From an uncultured Solirubrobacteraceae bacterium (lineage in GTDB: Bacteria > Actinomycetota > Thermoleophilia > Solirubrobacterales > Solirubrobacteraceae), in the NCBI GenBank assembly GCA_902806175.1, contig CADCVQ010000152.1, positions 1 through 47,069 on the forward strand: 47,069 nt of DNA, in the 5' to 3' direction. Position 1 is the stretch's first letter, and the number at the start of each line of letters is the position of its first letter. Both the position numbers and the translations under genes were made by a program. This document shows positions 25,380-38,462 of the stretch, piece after piece. The notes below the pieces were generated by a model. The model worked only from the letters and a program-made list of their open reading frames with translations. It made no database searches and was not told where the DNA came from.

Positions 25380-28352
25380 GTGAGCGATCGTCAGCGCAAC
25401 CTCTTCGTCCTGCTTCTCGTCGCCGGGATGCTGATCGCCTCTGTGGTGGTCATCTCGTCGAAGGAGACGAAGCTCGGCCTGGACCTGCAGGGCGGCGTCG
25501 AGCTCGTCTACGAGGTCAAGCCGCGTGCCGGGCAGCCGCCGCCCGGCCCCGACGCGATCCAGCGCGCGATCGACGTCATGCGCGAGCGCGTCGACCAGCT
25601 CGGCGTCGCCGAGCCCGAGATCCAGCAGTCCGGCAAGAACCAGATCAACGTCGCCCTGCCCGACGTCGCCAACCTGGACGAGGCGGTCCGGCAGGTCGGC
25701 ACCGTCGCGCAGCTCGCCTTCTATGACTGGGAAGTCAACGTCATCGGGCCCAACGGCAAGCCCGATCCGACGAACCCCGCCGTGACGGGCGGCCCCGCGG
25801 GCGGTGACGCCACCAGCCCGGCGGCGCTGTCGCTCTACGACGCGCTGCAGCGGGCCAAGCAGCGGCCGGCCAAGGCCGAGCCCAACAACTCGCGCGACGG
25901 CAGCCTCTTCTATGCCGTCGACCCGGAGGCCAAGAAGGTCTTCGGCCTCGGCGAGGAATCACCCGCAGAGGCACGCCAGAACGTGCCCGCCGCGCAGCGC
26001 GAGAAGGCCGACATCGTCGAGATCAAGCCCGACACGGTCATCGTCCGCGCCGAGAACCGCGCCGGTACGGCCAAGGCCGACAAGTGGTTCGTGCTCAAGG
26101 ACGACGTCGCGCTGGAGGGCAAGGAGCTCAAGGACCCCGAGCAGAACTTCGACCAGGGCGCGGCCGGCTCGGGCCAGCCGATCGTCACGTTCAAGTTCAG
26201 CGACAAGGGCCGCGAGACCTGGGAGCGCGTGACGAAGCGGATCGCCGAGCGCGGCCAGGAGAGCGTCGGCATCCTGCCCAACCAGTCGGCGGGAGACGTC
26301 GCCCAGCACTTCGCGATCGTGCTCGACAACGAGCTCGTCTCGACGCCGTTCATCGACTTCCAGCAGAACCCCGAGGGCATCGACGCCCGCAACGGGTCGC
26401 AGATCGAGGGCGGCTTCACGATCAAGACCGCCCAGGAGCTCGCAAACGTCCTCAAGACCGGCGCGCTGCCGGTCCAGCTCGAGCTCATCTCGAGCTCGCA
26501 GGTCTCCGCCACGCTGGGTAAGCAGGCGCTGAACCAGGGCCTGATCGCGGGCATCGCCGGCTTCGTGATCGTGGCACTGTTCCTGCTGATCGTCTATCGC
26601 GTGCTGGGCATGATCGCGGTCGCCGCGCTCGGCATCTACGGCCTGTACTTCTTCGCGCTCATCAAGCTCATCCCGGTCGTCCTGACGCTGCCGGGCATCG
26701 CCGGCCTGATCCTGACGCTGGGGGTGGCCGCCGACGCGAACATCGTCATCTTCGAGCGCGTCAAGGAGGAGATCCGCGGCGGCAGATCGGTCATGGCCGG
26801 CATCGCGACGGGCTACAAGAAGGGCCTGACGGCGATCATCGACGCGAACGTCGTCACGATCATGGTCGCGTTCATCCTGTTCGTGCTGGCGACGTCGGGG
26901 GTCAAGGGCTTCGCGCTCACGCTCGGTCTCGGCGTCATCGTCTCGCTGTTCACGGCCGTCCTGGCCACGCAGGCGATCCTCGGCACGATGGGCAAGTCGC
27001 GGGTCATCAACAAGCCGTCGGCGCTCGGCGCCGGCAAGCCCAAGGGCGACAAGCTGCGCCTGGACTACATGGGCTACTCCAAGTGGTTCTTCAGCGCGTC
27101 GGGCCTGATCTTGCTCGTCTGCGCGCTGGCGCTCGGCTCCAAGGGGATCAACTTCGGCATCGACTTCGAGTCGGGCACGCGGATCAACGTCGCGCTCGAG
27201 CAGAACCTCGACGAGGACGCCGTGCGCGACGTGATCGCCGAGGAGGGCCTCGGCGACGCCGAGATCCAGCGCGTGACGGGTGACGAGGGCGCCAAGGGCG
27301 CCAGCCAGTTCCAGATCTCGACCGACAACCTCGCGCCGCCGGAGGTCAGCAGGGTCACCCAGGCGCTCGAGGCGGAGTACGACCTCGCCGACGACCCCAG
27401 CTCGACCTCGATCGGGCCGACGTTCGGGGAGACCGTCGCCAACTCGGCGATCATCGCGATCATCGCGTCGCTGATCGTGATCTCGGCGTACATCGCGCTG
27501 CGATTCGAGCCCAAGTACGCGGTACCGGTGCTGATCGCCGTGATGCACGACATCCTCATCACAGCGGGCGTGTACGCGCTCGTCGGCCAGGAGGTGTCAA
27601 CGGCGACGGTCGCGGCGTTGCTGACCGTCTTGGGCTTCTCGCTGTACGACACGATCATCGTGTTCGACCGGATCCGCGAGAACGTGCCGCGCATGCCGCG
27701 GGCGGCGTTCTCGCAGATCGTCAACCGCTCGATGTCCGAGGTCATCGTGCGCTCGCTGGCGACGAGCTTCTGCTCGGTCCTGCCCGTGCTCGCGCTGTTG
27801 CTGTTCGGCGGCGAGACGCTGCAGGCGTTCGCGTTCGCGCTGCTGATCGGCACGATCTCCGGCACCTACTCGTCGGTGTTCATCGCAGGCCCGGTGCTGA
27901 CGGCATGGAAGGAGCGCGAGCCCGTCTACCGCCGCCGCCACGCAAGCATCGCCGCCGAGAACAACGGCCTCGTGCCCGCGTACGCGACCGGCGCGGCGAA
28001 CGAGCAGGTCGAGCACGACAAGCGGCGCCGCCTCAAGCGCGGGGAGCGCCTGACGGCGCCCGACGATCCCGAGAACGTCTCGCGCGAGGAGTTCGAGGAC
28101 CTGGTGCGCGACCTGCACGTCGATCCCGCACCGCGTCGTACGGCCGTCGCCGATCGCGCCGCGCCGAAGGCCAAGGCCGTCGCGCCCAAGCCCGCTCCCA
28201 AGCCCGTGGCGCCGCCGGTCGACGACTCCGCCGATGCGCTGCCCGAGGACACGGTGATGCCGGCGCGGCCCGCTGACGGCGCGGCAGCGAAGCCGCCGAA
28301 GCGCAACTCTGCCGCCGCGAAGCGGCGCGGCAAGCACGGGAGGCCTCGCTGA
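25380..28352 (+). CDS. secDF: Fused protein translocase subunit SecDF with long C-terminal tail
   Basis: 990 residues, GTG start. The SecD part opens with one helix and the signature GLDLQGGVELVYEV, followed by the large external P1 domain (residues about 50-360). The first five-helix bundle has GIAGLILTLGVAADANIVIF and ERVKEEIRGGRSVMAGI. The SecF part begins YSKWFFSASGLILLVCALAL with GIDFESGTRINVAL, and its second bundle has TVLGFSLYDTIIVFDRIREN. SecDF uses the proton gradient to help pull exported proteins through SecYEG. From about residue 843 a 148-residue hydrophilic tail follows, first charged, then rich in Ala-Pro-Lys, ending KRNSAAAKRRGKHGRPR; this is far beyond the usual end. The next gene starts inside its stop (TGATG). 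Confidence 0.95.
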   Translation: MSDRQRNLFVLLLVAGMLIASVVVISSKETKLGLDLQGGVELVYEVKPRAGQPPPGPDAIQRAIDVMRERVDQLGVAEPEIQQSGKNQINVALPDVANLDEAVRQVGTVAQLAFYDWEVNVIGPNGKPDPTNPAVTGGPAGGDATSPAALSLYDALQRAKQRPAKAEPNNSRDGSLFYAVDPEAKKVFGLGEESPAEARQNVPAAQREKADIVEIKPDTVIVRAENRAGTAKADKWFVLKDDVALEGKELKDPEQNFDQGAAGSGQPIVTFKFSDKGRETWERVTKRIAERGQESVGILPNQSAGDVAQHFAIVLDNELVSTPFIDFQQNPEGIDARNGSQIEGGFTIKTAQELANVLKTGALPVQLELISSSQVSATLGKQALNQGLIAGIAGFVIVALFLLIVYRVLGMIAVAALGIYGLYFFALIKLIPVVLTLPGIAGLILTLGVAADANIVIFERVKEEIRGGRSVMAGIATGYKKGLTAIIDANVVTIMVAFILFVLATSGVKGFALTLGLGVIVSLFTAVLATQAILGTMGKSRVINKPSALGAGKPKGDKLRLDYMGYSKWFFSASGLILLVCALALGSKGINFGIDFESGTRINVALEQNLDEDAVRDVIAEEGLGDAEIQRVTGDEGAKGASQFQISTDNLAPPEVSRVTQALEAEYDLADDPSSTSIGPTFGETVANSAIIAIIASLIVISAYIALRFEPKYAVPVLIAVMHDILITAGVYALVGQEVSTATVAALLTVLGFSLYDTIIVFDRIRENVPRMPRAAFSQIVNRSMSEVIVRSLATSFCSVLPVLALLLFGGETLQAFAFALLIGTISGTYSSVFIAGPVLTAWKEREPVYRRRHASIAAENNGLVPAYATGAANEQVEHDKRRRLKRGERLTAPDDPENVSREEFEDLVRDLHVDPAPRRTAVADRAAPKAKAVAPKPAPKPVAPPVDDSADALPEDTVMPARPADGAAAKPPKRNSAAAKRRGKHGRPR

Positions 28353-28639
28353 TGGGCGCGCTCGCCTGGACCATGATGGGCCTCGCCCTCTGGCACTTCA
28401 CGATCTTCCTGCCCGATCGCTGCTGGGGCGGGATCATCGGTGCGTTTCTGGGCTGCATCTTCGGGGCGATCCTCTTCGGCCTGGTGATCCACGGCTTCAA
28501 CGTTCCCGGCCAGGACGCCACCGACATCGTCACGACGCTCGAGGCGGTGCCGGGCGCACTGCTGGGCTATGGGTTCTTCTACTGGCTCGGGATGCGCCAG
28601 GAGGCGCGCGGGGCGGACGGCGAGTTGCTGGCCACATAG
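28352..28639 (+). CDS. Small membrane protein overlapping secDF
   Basis: 95 residues, three hydrophobic segments (ALAWTMMGLALWHFTIFL, then GIIGAFLGCIFGAILFGLVI and ALLGYGFFYWLGM). The start ATG shares one base with the secDF stop, so translation is probably coupled. A small glycine-rich motif (GGIIGAFLGCIFGA) in the second helix suggests tight helix packing. No family recognised with certainty. Cotranscription with secDF hints at a role near the translocon or simply a shared transcript. Confidence 0.7.
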   Translation: MGALAWTMMGLALWHFTIFLPDRCWGGIIGAFLGCIFGAILFGLVIHGFNVPGQDATDIVTTLEAVPGALLGYGFFYWLGMRQEARGADGELLAT

Positions 28640-28699
28640 GGCTGCCGGCGTGATGTGCACGTTTGCGCAGGGGTGCTTCGCGCTGCGTCTGGTCCGAGC

Positions 28700-28730
28700 G
28701 CCGGCCGTCTTGAACAGCATCACTGAGAGG
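28700..28730 (+). repeat. Block A, copy 1
   Basis: 31 bp beginning GCCGGCCGTCTTGAACAGCA; 28 of 31 positions match the copy at 29076-29106. It opens the first composite unit. Confidence 0.75.
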
Positions 28731-28875
28731 TGTGGGGCGGGTTCGGCCGCGCGGCGCTCAGCGGGGCGGGCGCGGCGGCTCGCGCGTCCTGATCGGCGGT
28801 CGTGGCGCCTGTGCTGCGCCATGCGCGGCTTTGCCGCCATGACCGGCGGCATGCGGGCGGTCGTGGGCGCCGGTG

Positions 28876-28894
28876 TGCTGCGCCATACGCAGCA
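28876..28894. repeat. Block I hairpin, unit 1
   Basis: TGCTGCG-CCATA-CGCAGCA, perfect 7-bp stem with a 5-nt loop. An imperfect copy lies 64 bp upstream at 28812-28830. Confidence 0.75.
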
Positions 28895-28910
28895 ATGACG
28901 CGATGATGAT

Positions 28911-29034
28911 GGTGCGCGCGCCTGCGGTCGTGGCGCGCGAAGGGGGCGCTATCGCGCTTGCCGCGTCATGACGGTGCGCGCGCCTGCGGTCGTGGCGCGC
29001 GCAGAGGTGCTTTCAGCACCCGCCGCGCCACGAC
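28911..29034. repeat. 62-bp tandem duplication carrying two Block II hairpins
   Basis: 28911-28972 and 28973-29034 are two head-to-tail copies of 62 bp. The first 29 bp are identical (starting GGTGCGCGCGCCTGCGGTCG). The last 33 bp differ yet are equal in length and both fold. Hairpins: 28927-28972 (outer stem with two G-T pairs) and 28989-29034 (perfect outer stem GTCGTGGCGC/GCGCCACGAC with inner GGTGCT-ttc-AGCACC). Confidence 0.8.
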
Positions 29035-29075
29035 GTGCGCGTGGTCTTGATGGCTTCGCGCGTGGGTGGTTGGGT

Positions 29076-29106
29076 GCCGGCCGGCTTGAACAGCATCATC
29101 GAGAGG
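29076..29106 (+). repeat. Block A, copy 2
   Basis: 31 bp beginning GCCGGCCGGCTTGAACAGCA; three mismatches to copy 1. Similarity continues weakly through CGCTCAGCGG and into the next Block I hairpin. Confidence 0.75.
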
Positions 29107-29179
29107 CAAAGGGTGTCCTCGACCGCGCCGCGCTCAGCGGCGCCGGGCCGCGCCTCCCGATCGACGATCATGGCGCCTG

Positions 29180-29198
29180 TGCTGCGTTCTACGCGGCA
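29180..29198. repeat. Block I hairpin, unit 2 first copy
   Basis: TGCTGCG-TTCTA-CGCGGCA; 7-bp stem with one T-G pair and a different loop from the other copies. Confidence 0.7.
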
Positions 29199-29240
29199 AT
29201 GACGCCATGACCGGCCGCACGCCGGGGGTCGTGGCGCCGG

Positions 29241-29259
29241 TGCTGCGCCAAGCGCAGCA
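29241..29259. repeat. Block I hairpin, unit 2 second copy
   Basis: TGCTGCG-CCAAG-CGCAGCA, perfect 7-bp stem. The Block II hairpin begins 48 bp downstream. Confidence 0.75.
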
Positions 29260-29288
29260 ATATCGCCACGGTGGCCGCCCGCCCGTGC

Positions 29289-29334
29289 GTCGTGGCACCG
29301 GAAGGGGCGCTATCCGCACCTGCCACGCCACGAC
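29289..29334. repeat. Block II hairpin, unit 2
   Basis: 46 bp, outer stem GTCGTGGC paired with GCCACGAC allowing one inner interruption. The interior GGGGCGCTATC is shared with the unit-1 copy and ATCCGCACCT with the unit-3 copy. Confidence 0.7.
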
Positions 29335-29508
29335 CGCGAGCGCGCGTGCCCGGCCCACGGCCGCGGCGCCGCAGACCGACCCTCTCATCGATGCGGCTGC
29401 CCGAAGGAGCGCCGTCACCAGTTCGCCCAGCCCGGCCGAGAGGCAAGCCCCGCAAGCGGCGACACAAGGGCGCAGGTCGGGCCGGTCGCCGCTGAGGTCA
29501 TCGCGCCT

Positions 29509-29529
29509 GTGCTGCTCCATACGCAGCAC
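29509..29529. repeat. Block I hairpin, unit 3
   Basis: GTGCTGC-TCCATAC-GCAGCAC, perfect 7-bp stem shifted by one base relative to the other copies. Block II follows 52 bp downstream. Confidence 0.75.
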
Positions 29530-29560
29530 GATCGTCACGATCGAAGCCGCCGCGCCGCGG

Positions 29561-29606
29561 GTCGTGTCGCTTCACCGGGCAACATCCGCACCTCGCGCGA
29601 CACGAT
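29561..29606. repeat. Block II hairpin, unit 3
   Basis: 46 bp, outer stem GTCGTGTCGC paired with GCGACACGAT. Stem position 7 is T-A here and G-C in the copies at 28989 and 29289, a compensatory change. Confidence 0.72.
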
Positions 29607-29668
29607 CCACCGACCCTCAGACACGACGGCGCGGCAGGGATCGCGCCCGCGCGCTCGTATCTGCACCC

Positions 29669-30175
29669 ATGTCGCGCAACGGGGCCGGAACGCAGCGCAT
29701 CCTCGTCCTCGACACGGCCGAACAGCCGCAACCGCACGCCAGCGATCCGCCGCTCGAGCGTGAGGTGCATCCGCGCCGGGAACTGCCTGTGAAGAAGCCC
29801 GCGATGCAGCAGACCGGCTGGACACCACGACGGTTGACGATCGCCGGCGCCCTCGGCGTCGGCGCGACGCTGCTGGGCGGCGTGGTGTTCATCTCGAAGT
29901 TCGGCGTCCTCGGCGGAGCCGACAGCCCTCTGCTCGCGATGGGCTTCGGCCTCTTCGTGATCGGGATGATCGTGTTCTGTGCCGCCCTGATCGCCCTGCT
30001 CGGCCTGGGGATCAGCATCCTCGGCGAGCGCGGCGGCTCGCCGGCCGCGGCCGCCGCCGTGTTCGCGCCGCTGGCGCTGATCTGGGCGCTCTACGGTCTG
30101 GGCGCCGTCGGCTACGCGATCCCTGCCGTGATCTCGCTCGTGCTGATCGCGGGGCTCGTCGTCGCGCTGAAGTAG
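29669..30175 (+). CDS. Four-helix membrane protein of unknown function
   Basis: 168 residues from ATG 29669. GTG 29789 or ATG 29804 could start a shorter form that keeps all helices. The first 50 residues are hydrophilic. Four hydrophobic segments follow: TIAGALGVGATLLGGVVFIS, then AMGFGLFVIGMIVFCAALIA, AAAAVFAPLALIWALYGLG and YAIPAVISLVLIAGLVVALK. No family recognised. It lies between the repeat array and recJ, 44 bp before the recJ start, and may share the recJ transcript. Confidence 0.62.
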   Translation: MSRNGAGTQRILVLDTAEQPQPHASDPPLEREVHPRRELPVKKPAMQQTGWTPRRLTIAGALGVGATLLGGVVFISKFGVLGGADSPLLAMGFGLFVIGMIVFCAALIALLGLGISILGERGGSPAAAAAVFAPLALIWALYGLGAVGYAIPAVISLVLIAGLVVALK

Positions 30176-38294: not shown

Positions 38295-38323
38295 GGTTGA
38301 TATTGTGGCGCGCCAGAGCTGGA

Positions 38324-38414
38324 CACATCCAGAGGGGTGGAGGGACAGGCCCTATGAAGCCCCGGCAACCAACCCGCTGTTCGCGGGAAACGGTGCCAAT
38401 TCCTGTCAGATGTG
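38324..38414 (+). promoter_or_regulatory. SAM-I (S-box) riboswitch aptamer
   Basis: P1 is closed by CACATC (38324-38329) with GATGTG (38409-38414). Between them run the conserved S-box core pieces: AGAGGGGTGGAGGGACAGGC, then CCCTATGAAGCCCCGGCAAC including the kink-turn side, a P3 stem CCCGC-tgttc-GCGGG, and GGTGCCAATTCCTGTC. The match to the SAM-I consensus is nearly complete. It sits on the strand of, and 52 bp before, the threonine-synthase-like gene. SAM-I aptamers usually shut off methionine and SAM synthesis genes. Confidence 0.93.
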
Positions 38415-38462
38415 GCACAGGCCGCGAAGCCTTCGCCACAGAACACGTACGGCGAACGGGAG
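38409..38462 (+). promoter_or_regulatory. Putative riboswitch expression platform (translation-level switch)
   Basis: TTCGCC (38432-38437) can pair with GGCGAA (38451-38456), which ends just before the GGGAG ribosome site (38458-38462). The competing pairing is TGTGGC (38411-38416), part of the P1 3' strand, with GCCACA (38435-38440). With SAM bound, P1 would hold TGTG and let the ribosome-site hairpin form, giving an OFF switch. Pairings are seen; the mechanism is inferred. Confidence 0.55.

Follow-up and report, generated by a model that had tools for sequence, protein, structure and literature searches.

The nine hairpins that lie within about 1 kb of the window, by which we mean the whole 47,069-nt stretch of uncultured Solirubrobacteraceae DNA analysed here, probably belong to a genus-specific family of short, non-coding, modular and mobile-like elements with a build resembling that of MITEs or of pneumococcal BOX elements. 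Five of the hairpins are of class I and four of class II (45-48 nt), and they are accompanied by end blocks, termed Block A. The evidence for this reading comes from the anatomy of the array, the dispersal of its hairpins through the genome, an empty site in congeners, the inverted ends of the elements, their placement behind genes and the covariation observed in hairpin classes II and III.

Anatomy of the array in the window

The original prediction, made from the DNA letters alone, had described three units in which blocks A, I and II recur in a fixed order. Covariance models for class I (R1) and class II (R2), which define the hairpin coordinates in Table 1, reproduced the five Block I and four Block II hairpins and their order, I-I-II-II, I-I-II and I-II. 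Block A had been placed in every unit; two forward copies with starts 376 bp apart (28700 and 29076) were indeed recovered, whereas the third unit has no detectable forward copy and an inverted one, Block A' at 29353-29394, instead closes the second unit. A Block A profile detected two forward modules, at 28707-28746 and 29083-29144, and one inverted module at 29353-29394, so that one element in the window is complete and two further parts lack one end or both. The array is a stack in which a complete A-I-I-II-A' element (29083-29394) lies between an A-I-I-II-II part and a I-II part. A degenerate A' at 29612-29630, considered as the outer end of a nested element, was not supported by the profile.

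Two measurements differ from what had been predicted. The distance from Block I to Block II, given as 48-52 bp, is 61-67 bp from start to start, with 16-19 nt between the hairpins, and the inserted stretch is larger than proposed, extending from about 28640 to 29631. The array folds better than dinucleotide-shuffled sequences on both strands (z of -3.3 and -4.1; 0 of 20 shuffles as good). The claim that it belongs to no known family holds for Rfam, where the array had no match at the gathering score and related elements had no relevant match even at E<=1. Elsewhere in the window, at 38322-38416 on the forward strand, there is a SAM riboswitch (Rfam RF00162, 74.1 bits).

Table 1. Coordinates of the array, its modules and its borders in the window
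Feature	Position	Strand	Evidence
Whole lineage-specific insertion (array)	28640..29631		stop codon at left, conserved upstream region of next gene at right; congener alignment
Block A copy 1 (inverted end module of element family)	28700..28746	+	direct repeat D4; other-species profile E 1e-4 at 28707-28746
Class I hairpin 1	28799..28843	+	R1, 58.7 bits
Class I hairpin 2 (48 nt, degenerate)	28860..28907	+	R1, 34.6 bits
Class II hairpin 1	28927..28972	+	R2, 50.5 bits
Class II hairpin 2	28989..29034	+	R2, 59.5 bits
Block A copy 2, left end of complete element A-I-I-II-A'	29076..29144	+	D4; profile E 1.5e-3 at 29083-29144
Class I hairpin 3	29167..29211	+	R1, 52.6 bits
Class I hairpin 4	29228..29272	+	R1, 58.3 bits
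Class II hairpin 3	29289..29334	+	R2, 63.7 bits
Block A' (inverted copy), right end of complete element	29353..29400	-	profile E 1.8e-3 at 29353-29394; motif scan 15/17 at 29381
Class I hairpin 5	29497..29541	+	R1, 32.1 bits
Class II hairpin 4 (GTCGTGTCG/CGACACGAT subtype)	29561..29606	+	R2, 57.2 bits
Upstream flanking gene, 95 aa, conserved in congeners; stop codon is left border	28352..28639	+	tblastn 67-89% identity, five congeners
Conserved sequence CGGCAGGGATC... ahead of next gene, right border	29632..29669	+	alignable in G005, G002, G003

Hairpin classes and covariation

The hairpin modules are double stems with an internal loop, about 45 nt long. Class I, the Block I of the original prediction, follows the pattern GTCGTGGCG-nnnn-TGCWGCG-CCATR-CGCAGCA-nnnn-CGCCACGAC (about 45 nt), and class II, its Block II, has the same outer stem and a different inner one (about 46 nt). 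Class III, found in congeners, reads GGTGTGKCGRATnnn...ATYCGMCACACC. Five elements of congener G002 (L298, L310, L312, L324 and L334) carry further hairpin cargo between Block A modules, GGTCTGGTCG...TTCATGTnGGGCATGAACAA...CGACCAGACC, possibly an extra hairpin class.

It had been claimed that the copies differ in sequence yet keep their stems. Within this genome we looked for covariation between class I copies and found none, as expected of recent sequence copies, and the claim stands at the level of species and classes. Across species, pair 7-40 of class II was seen as A-U, U-A or G-C, and pair 5-37 of class III was U-A in 13 cases and G-C in 11, and never a mismatch. Class II had 13 double-changed cells against 4.4 in shuffled alignments and class III had 35 against 16.4, with none of 500 shuffles as high in either case, in a control that leaves relatedness in and, for class III, on a set chosen by a pattern that fixes part of the outer stem. 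The covariation of class II across species and of class III is thus strong, though not final, evidence that stems are kept.

Inverted Block A modules enclose hairpins in sister species

The Block A core, GAACNGCATCNNTGAGRG, was found 52 times in G002, 11 times in G005, five times in the window's own genome and 0-2 times in each of the other four congeners, with no match for a reversed-pattern control. G002 and G005 together hold twenty inverted A...A' pairs, 155-350 bp apart, with several hairpin classes between them. Most pairs are spaced either 155-173 bp, with one hairpin, or 211-244 bp, often with two, a correspondence that is approximate since the automatic finder recovered a single hairpin or none in some pairs of 211-244 bp; the window pair, at 293 bp, encloses three. 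Counted by eye, the arrangement is A-(hairpin)n-A' with n from 1 to 3. Of 34 cases measured, 29 have Block A at a distance of 13-96 nt downstream of a stop codon.

A profile built from the other species found Block A in the window and at about six other loci of the same genome, with no shuffled match below E 1. Since a recognisable Block A is left at only about 7 of the 46 hairpin loci described below, we infer the element origin of the rest.

Dispersal through the genome and placement behind genes

The window's genome is a draft of 183 contigs, 97% complete. Compared with it by blastn, the array gave 89 matches on many contigs, and R1 and R2 gave 110 and 70 matches, respectively, with both strands counted. 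After merging by place and filtering, about 93 hairpins (58 of class I, 35 of class II) remained at 46 intergenic loci, intergenic status being judged with a codon-based gene caller purpose-built for the genome, with one excluded case that does not lie between genes. The covariance search, proposed together with the original prediction as the analysis that could refute it, thus revealed many further copies across the genome.

At the 41 loci where both neighbouring genes were called, 21 gene pairs are convergent, 19 codirectional and only one divergent, against a background of 33, 99 and 29; for these loci versus the background pairs, the convergent excess has a Fisher p of 2.5e-4 and the divergent deficit a p of 0.012. 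One class I hairpin (L141, contig C164, 2071-2115) stands directly behind a tRNA gene, of serine type by its sequence, and G001 has unrelated DNA there. This locus was considered as a 61-nt single-unit insertion and rejected, as the DNA in G001 is other DNA and the border is not clean.

Empty sites and distribution in relatives

Where the window has about 1 kb, congeners G001, G005, G002 and G003 have 36-74 nt. The absence of the whole stretch in four of five aligned congeners indicates that the array was gained. In G006, too, class I is missing at this place, and the interval is filled by other, unaligned sequence. Further loci of the window's genome show insertions of about 170-700 nt relative to congeners, such as L131, where about 300 nt of extra DNA surround two hairpins. 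The extra DNA exceeds the hairpins alone, as expected if they arrived inside larger elements. The suggestion that the array might derive from a mobile element is therefore supported by the dispersed copies, the empty site in congeners and Block A as inverted ends around hairpins of sister species. A step of 60-61 nt was seen again in G002 and G003, including at L265.

As far as tested, the family is confined to one genus. Class I is almost limited to the window's genome; for class II, many copies occur in G002 and G003 and few in G001, G004, G005 and G006; class III is present in G001, G002, G003, G005 and G006, with no copy in the window's genome or in 54 genomes outside the genus. Element number is high in the window's genome, G002 and G003 and low in G001 and G006. 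The strict class I pattern had no match among 84,980 species scanned, a relaxed one gave 31 single matches in unrelated species, which we regard as chance, and viral contigs had no match for class I or Block A. In most genomes, a scan of congener loci for architecture alone barely exceeded the shuffles, and it was set aside. Another family of the same order carries dispersed 37-nt palindromes, TGGCGACTTTGTGGCGCTATGCGCCACAAAGTCGCCA, of similar double-stem shape (G038 L063, L069, L071, L074 and L075; G032 L067); these share only a short stem core with the hairpins described here and are not counted as members of the element family.

At one intergenic site between a recG-like and an rsmD-like gene (names inferred from sequence), Block A or a variant of it is accompanied by a hairpin in each of G001, G002, G003 and G005, and the sequences differ. 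The site can be an old insertion in which the stem was kept or the result of repeated insertion.

Mechanism and alternative explanations

In the element family that we favour, Block A and its inverse A' would flank from one to four hairpin modules, each about 45 nt long and separated by 16 or 26 nt, and hairpin classes of unrelated sequence and similar build would fill the same place, I and II here and II, III and others in sister species. The elements would insert immediately downstream of stop codons, an enzyme probably moving them in trans, and the number of hairpins would then change through gain or loss of units of roughly 61 nt. Decay of the end modules would leave bare hairpin arrays, and the hairpins may mildly affect the 3' ends of transcripts. 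Against this order of events, hairpins at the same place in several species, at the recG-rsmD and ftsH loci, could reflect a maintained function and not decay after insertion.

It is conceivable, but on balance doubtful, that the family represents a cassette-type element, with conserved ends and exchangeable hairpin cassettes, constant in length and in phase (about 61 or 71 nt), that are swapped between lineages without sequence homology. Such an element would spread by neither Y1/RAYT nor a known insertion sequence and would in part have been recruited as a 3'-end structure of genes.

That the hairpins are functional RNA structures (terminators, attenuators or stabilisers), selected at gene ends with their sequence turning over freely, seems unlikely to us. 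The covariation of classes II and III, the location behind stop codons, the near absence from divergent regions and the finding that several species have hairpins of differing sequence at shared intergenic positions (recG-rsmD and ftsH) would all agree with it, and to that extent a role as structured RNAs, as considered in the original prediction, is conceivable. However, hairpin direction is random with respect to transcription in the window's genome (at codirectional loci 9 with it and 11 against it), the hairpins are not followed by a U-tract, most orthologous congener sites have no hairpin, and copy number is patchy, about 93 here compared with few class I or II hairpins in G001, G004, G005 and G006.

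We consider it improbable that the family is a REP/BIME system, in which a REP-associated tyrosine (Y1 HUH) transposase copies REP-type palindromes. The extragenic palindromes here are dispersed and have an internal loop, the composite arrays combine two classes at fixed spacing, and convergent and unidirectional gene pairs are preferred, as published for REPs (PMC3733652, PMC2817692). Nevertheless, the family is not a canonical REP/RAYT system, as the enzyme is missing: the RAYT/TnpA-type gene raised with the original prediction, represented by PF01797, had no match at E<=10 in any of the seven genomes of the genus, the window's own included, while 10 of 14 control genomes were positive. The hairpins, moreover, are 45 nt long and mostly head-to-tail, with no evident GTAG or CGTC tag, and the arrays are enclosed by unrelated inverted ends.

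Other marks of mobilisation were sought as well. By clustering alone, no transposase was found beside the elements, and the genes that recur there are ordinary orthologues only. In the loci examined, only one inverted Block A pair, spanning 1.2 kb, surrounds a gene large enough for a transposase, and that gene looks ordinary. In the flanks of 20 elements, direct repeats were no more frequent than in a mismatched-flank control, giving no sign of consistent target-site duplication. A single long flanking repeat, 26 bp (TAGGTCCGGTCAGCCGGCCGTGCGCT), was seen by eye around an element behind a stop codon in G002 (L310, around 1501). The window's genome also carries a 167-bp imperfect palindrome (TGGACGCGTCCG...CGGACGCGCCCA) at L143:1816-1982 (contig C9:39415-39581) and about 40 other places. 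About 20 copies share 97-100% identity, many of them lie at the ends of contigs, and CTAG stands on both sides; they form a MITE-like family, recently active and unrelated to Block A.

The regular spacing could also be read as that of a chromosome-organising array, in which a protein would bind the hairpins on one face of the DNA and the gaps of 16 or 26 nt would thus differ by one helical turn. Among 45 gaps between neighbouring hairpins, 27 measure 14-17 nt (20 of them exactly 16) and 13 measure 24-27 nt, the other five being 19, 19, 20, 33 and 43 nt. These modes, about 10 nt apart, are alike for I-I, II-II and mostly for I-II neighbours (16-19 nt between different classes), and the 3' arm of class I is the more conserved one (1.83 versus 1.60 bits), both of which would suit a binding protein. 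Yet mixed arrays run I then II wherever the orientation of class I is clear (that of near-symmetric class II copies is uncertain), so that descent from a shared composite can account for part of the spacing, and the window itself has 19-nt gaps; we regard a binding array as highly improbable, and the chromosome-organising site suggested in the original prediction found no direct support.

A local degenerate tandem duplication of no wider meaning, to which the higher identity of neighbouring than of distant hairpins (0.81 versus 0.71) might have pointed, deserves practically no credence and is refuted by the genome-wide search, which placed the same hairpins at 46 loci and the end block in sister species, and chance or low complexity is ruled out by the genome-wide copies and the shuffle controls.

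Comparison with known systems

If the element family that we favour is real, modular repeats of the BOX/REP type would reach into a high-G+C lineage, and the sister species would offer a natural series in which one element frame holds different covarying hairpins. Movement without a Y1 transposase would become testable, as would the question of whether hairpin shape and spacing or the sequence is kept.

With MITEs, the elements share their shortness, non-coding nature, intergenic location, inverted ends (20 Block A pairs in G002 and G005, plus that of the window) and empty sites in relatives (for the window locus, G001, G005, G002 and G003). They differ in that target duplication (20 elements against mismatched flanks) and, in the loci examined, a parent transposase were not found, and in that the interior consists of countable hairpin modules.

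The likeness to REP/BIME/REPIN systems and their RAYTs lies in many short extragenic palindromes, two classes in regularly spaced composites, the position behind genes and species-specific sequences (PMC2817692, PMC3116915, PMC3733652); the 93 hairpins are high-copy, extragenic and mainly between convergent or unidirectional genes. CGTC REPs are also without a known transposase (PMC2817692, PMC3116915, PMC3733652). Here, in contrast, no Y1 transposase occurs in the genus, the modules are 45 nt and not 20-40 nt long, they stand mostly head-to-tail and not alternating or head-to-head, and inverted Block A ends enclose them; no common tetranucleotide of the GTAG or CGTC kind was evident by eye in the listed hairpin flanks.

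BOX elements of Streptococcus pneumoniae and S. suis have the form boxA - n x boxB - boxC, with boxD and boxE/boxF types in S. suis (PMC3049150). As in the elements described here, end modules surround a variable number of tandem central modules, hairpins are predicted, the location is extragenic, module types share one frame, and the elements are non-coding and assumed to move in trans (PMC3049150). The present family belongs to another phylum of very high G+C, and the likeness drawn here is one of build; its central modules are autonomous double-stem hairpins of several unrelated sequences with fixed gaps of 16 or 26 nt, and its ends are inverted copies of one block. By its build, the family would thus fit closest to pneumococcal BOX, with hairpin modules that resemble REPs (PMC3049150, PMC3733652, PMC2817692).
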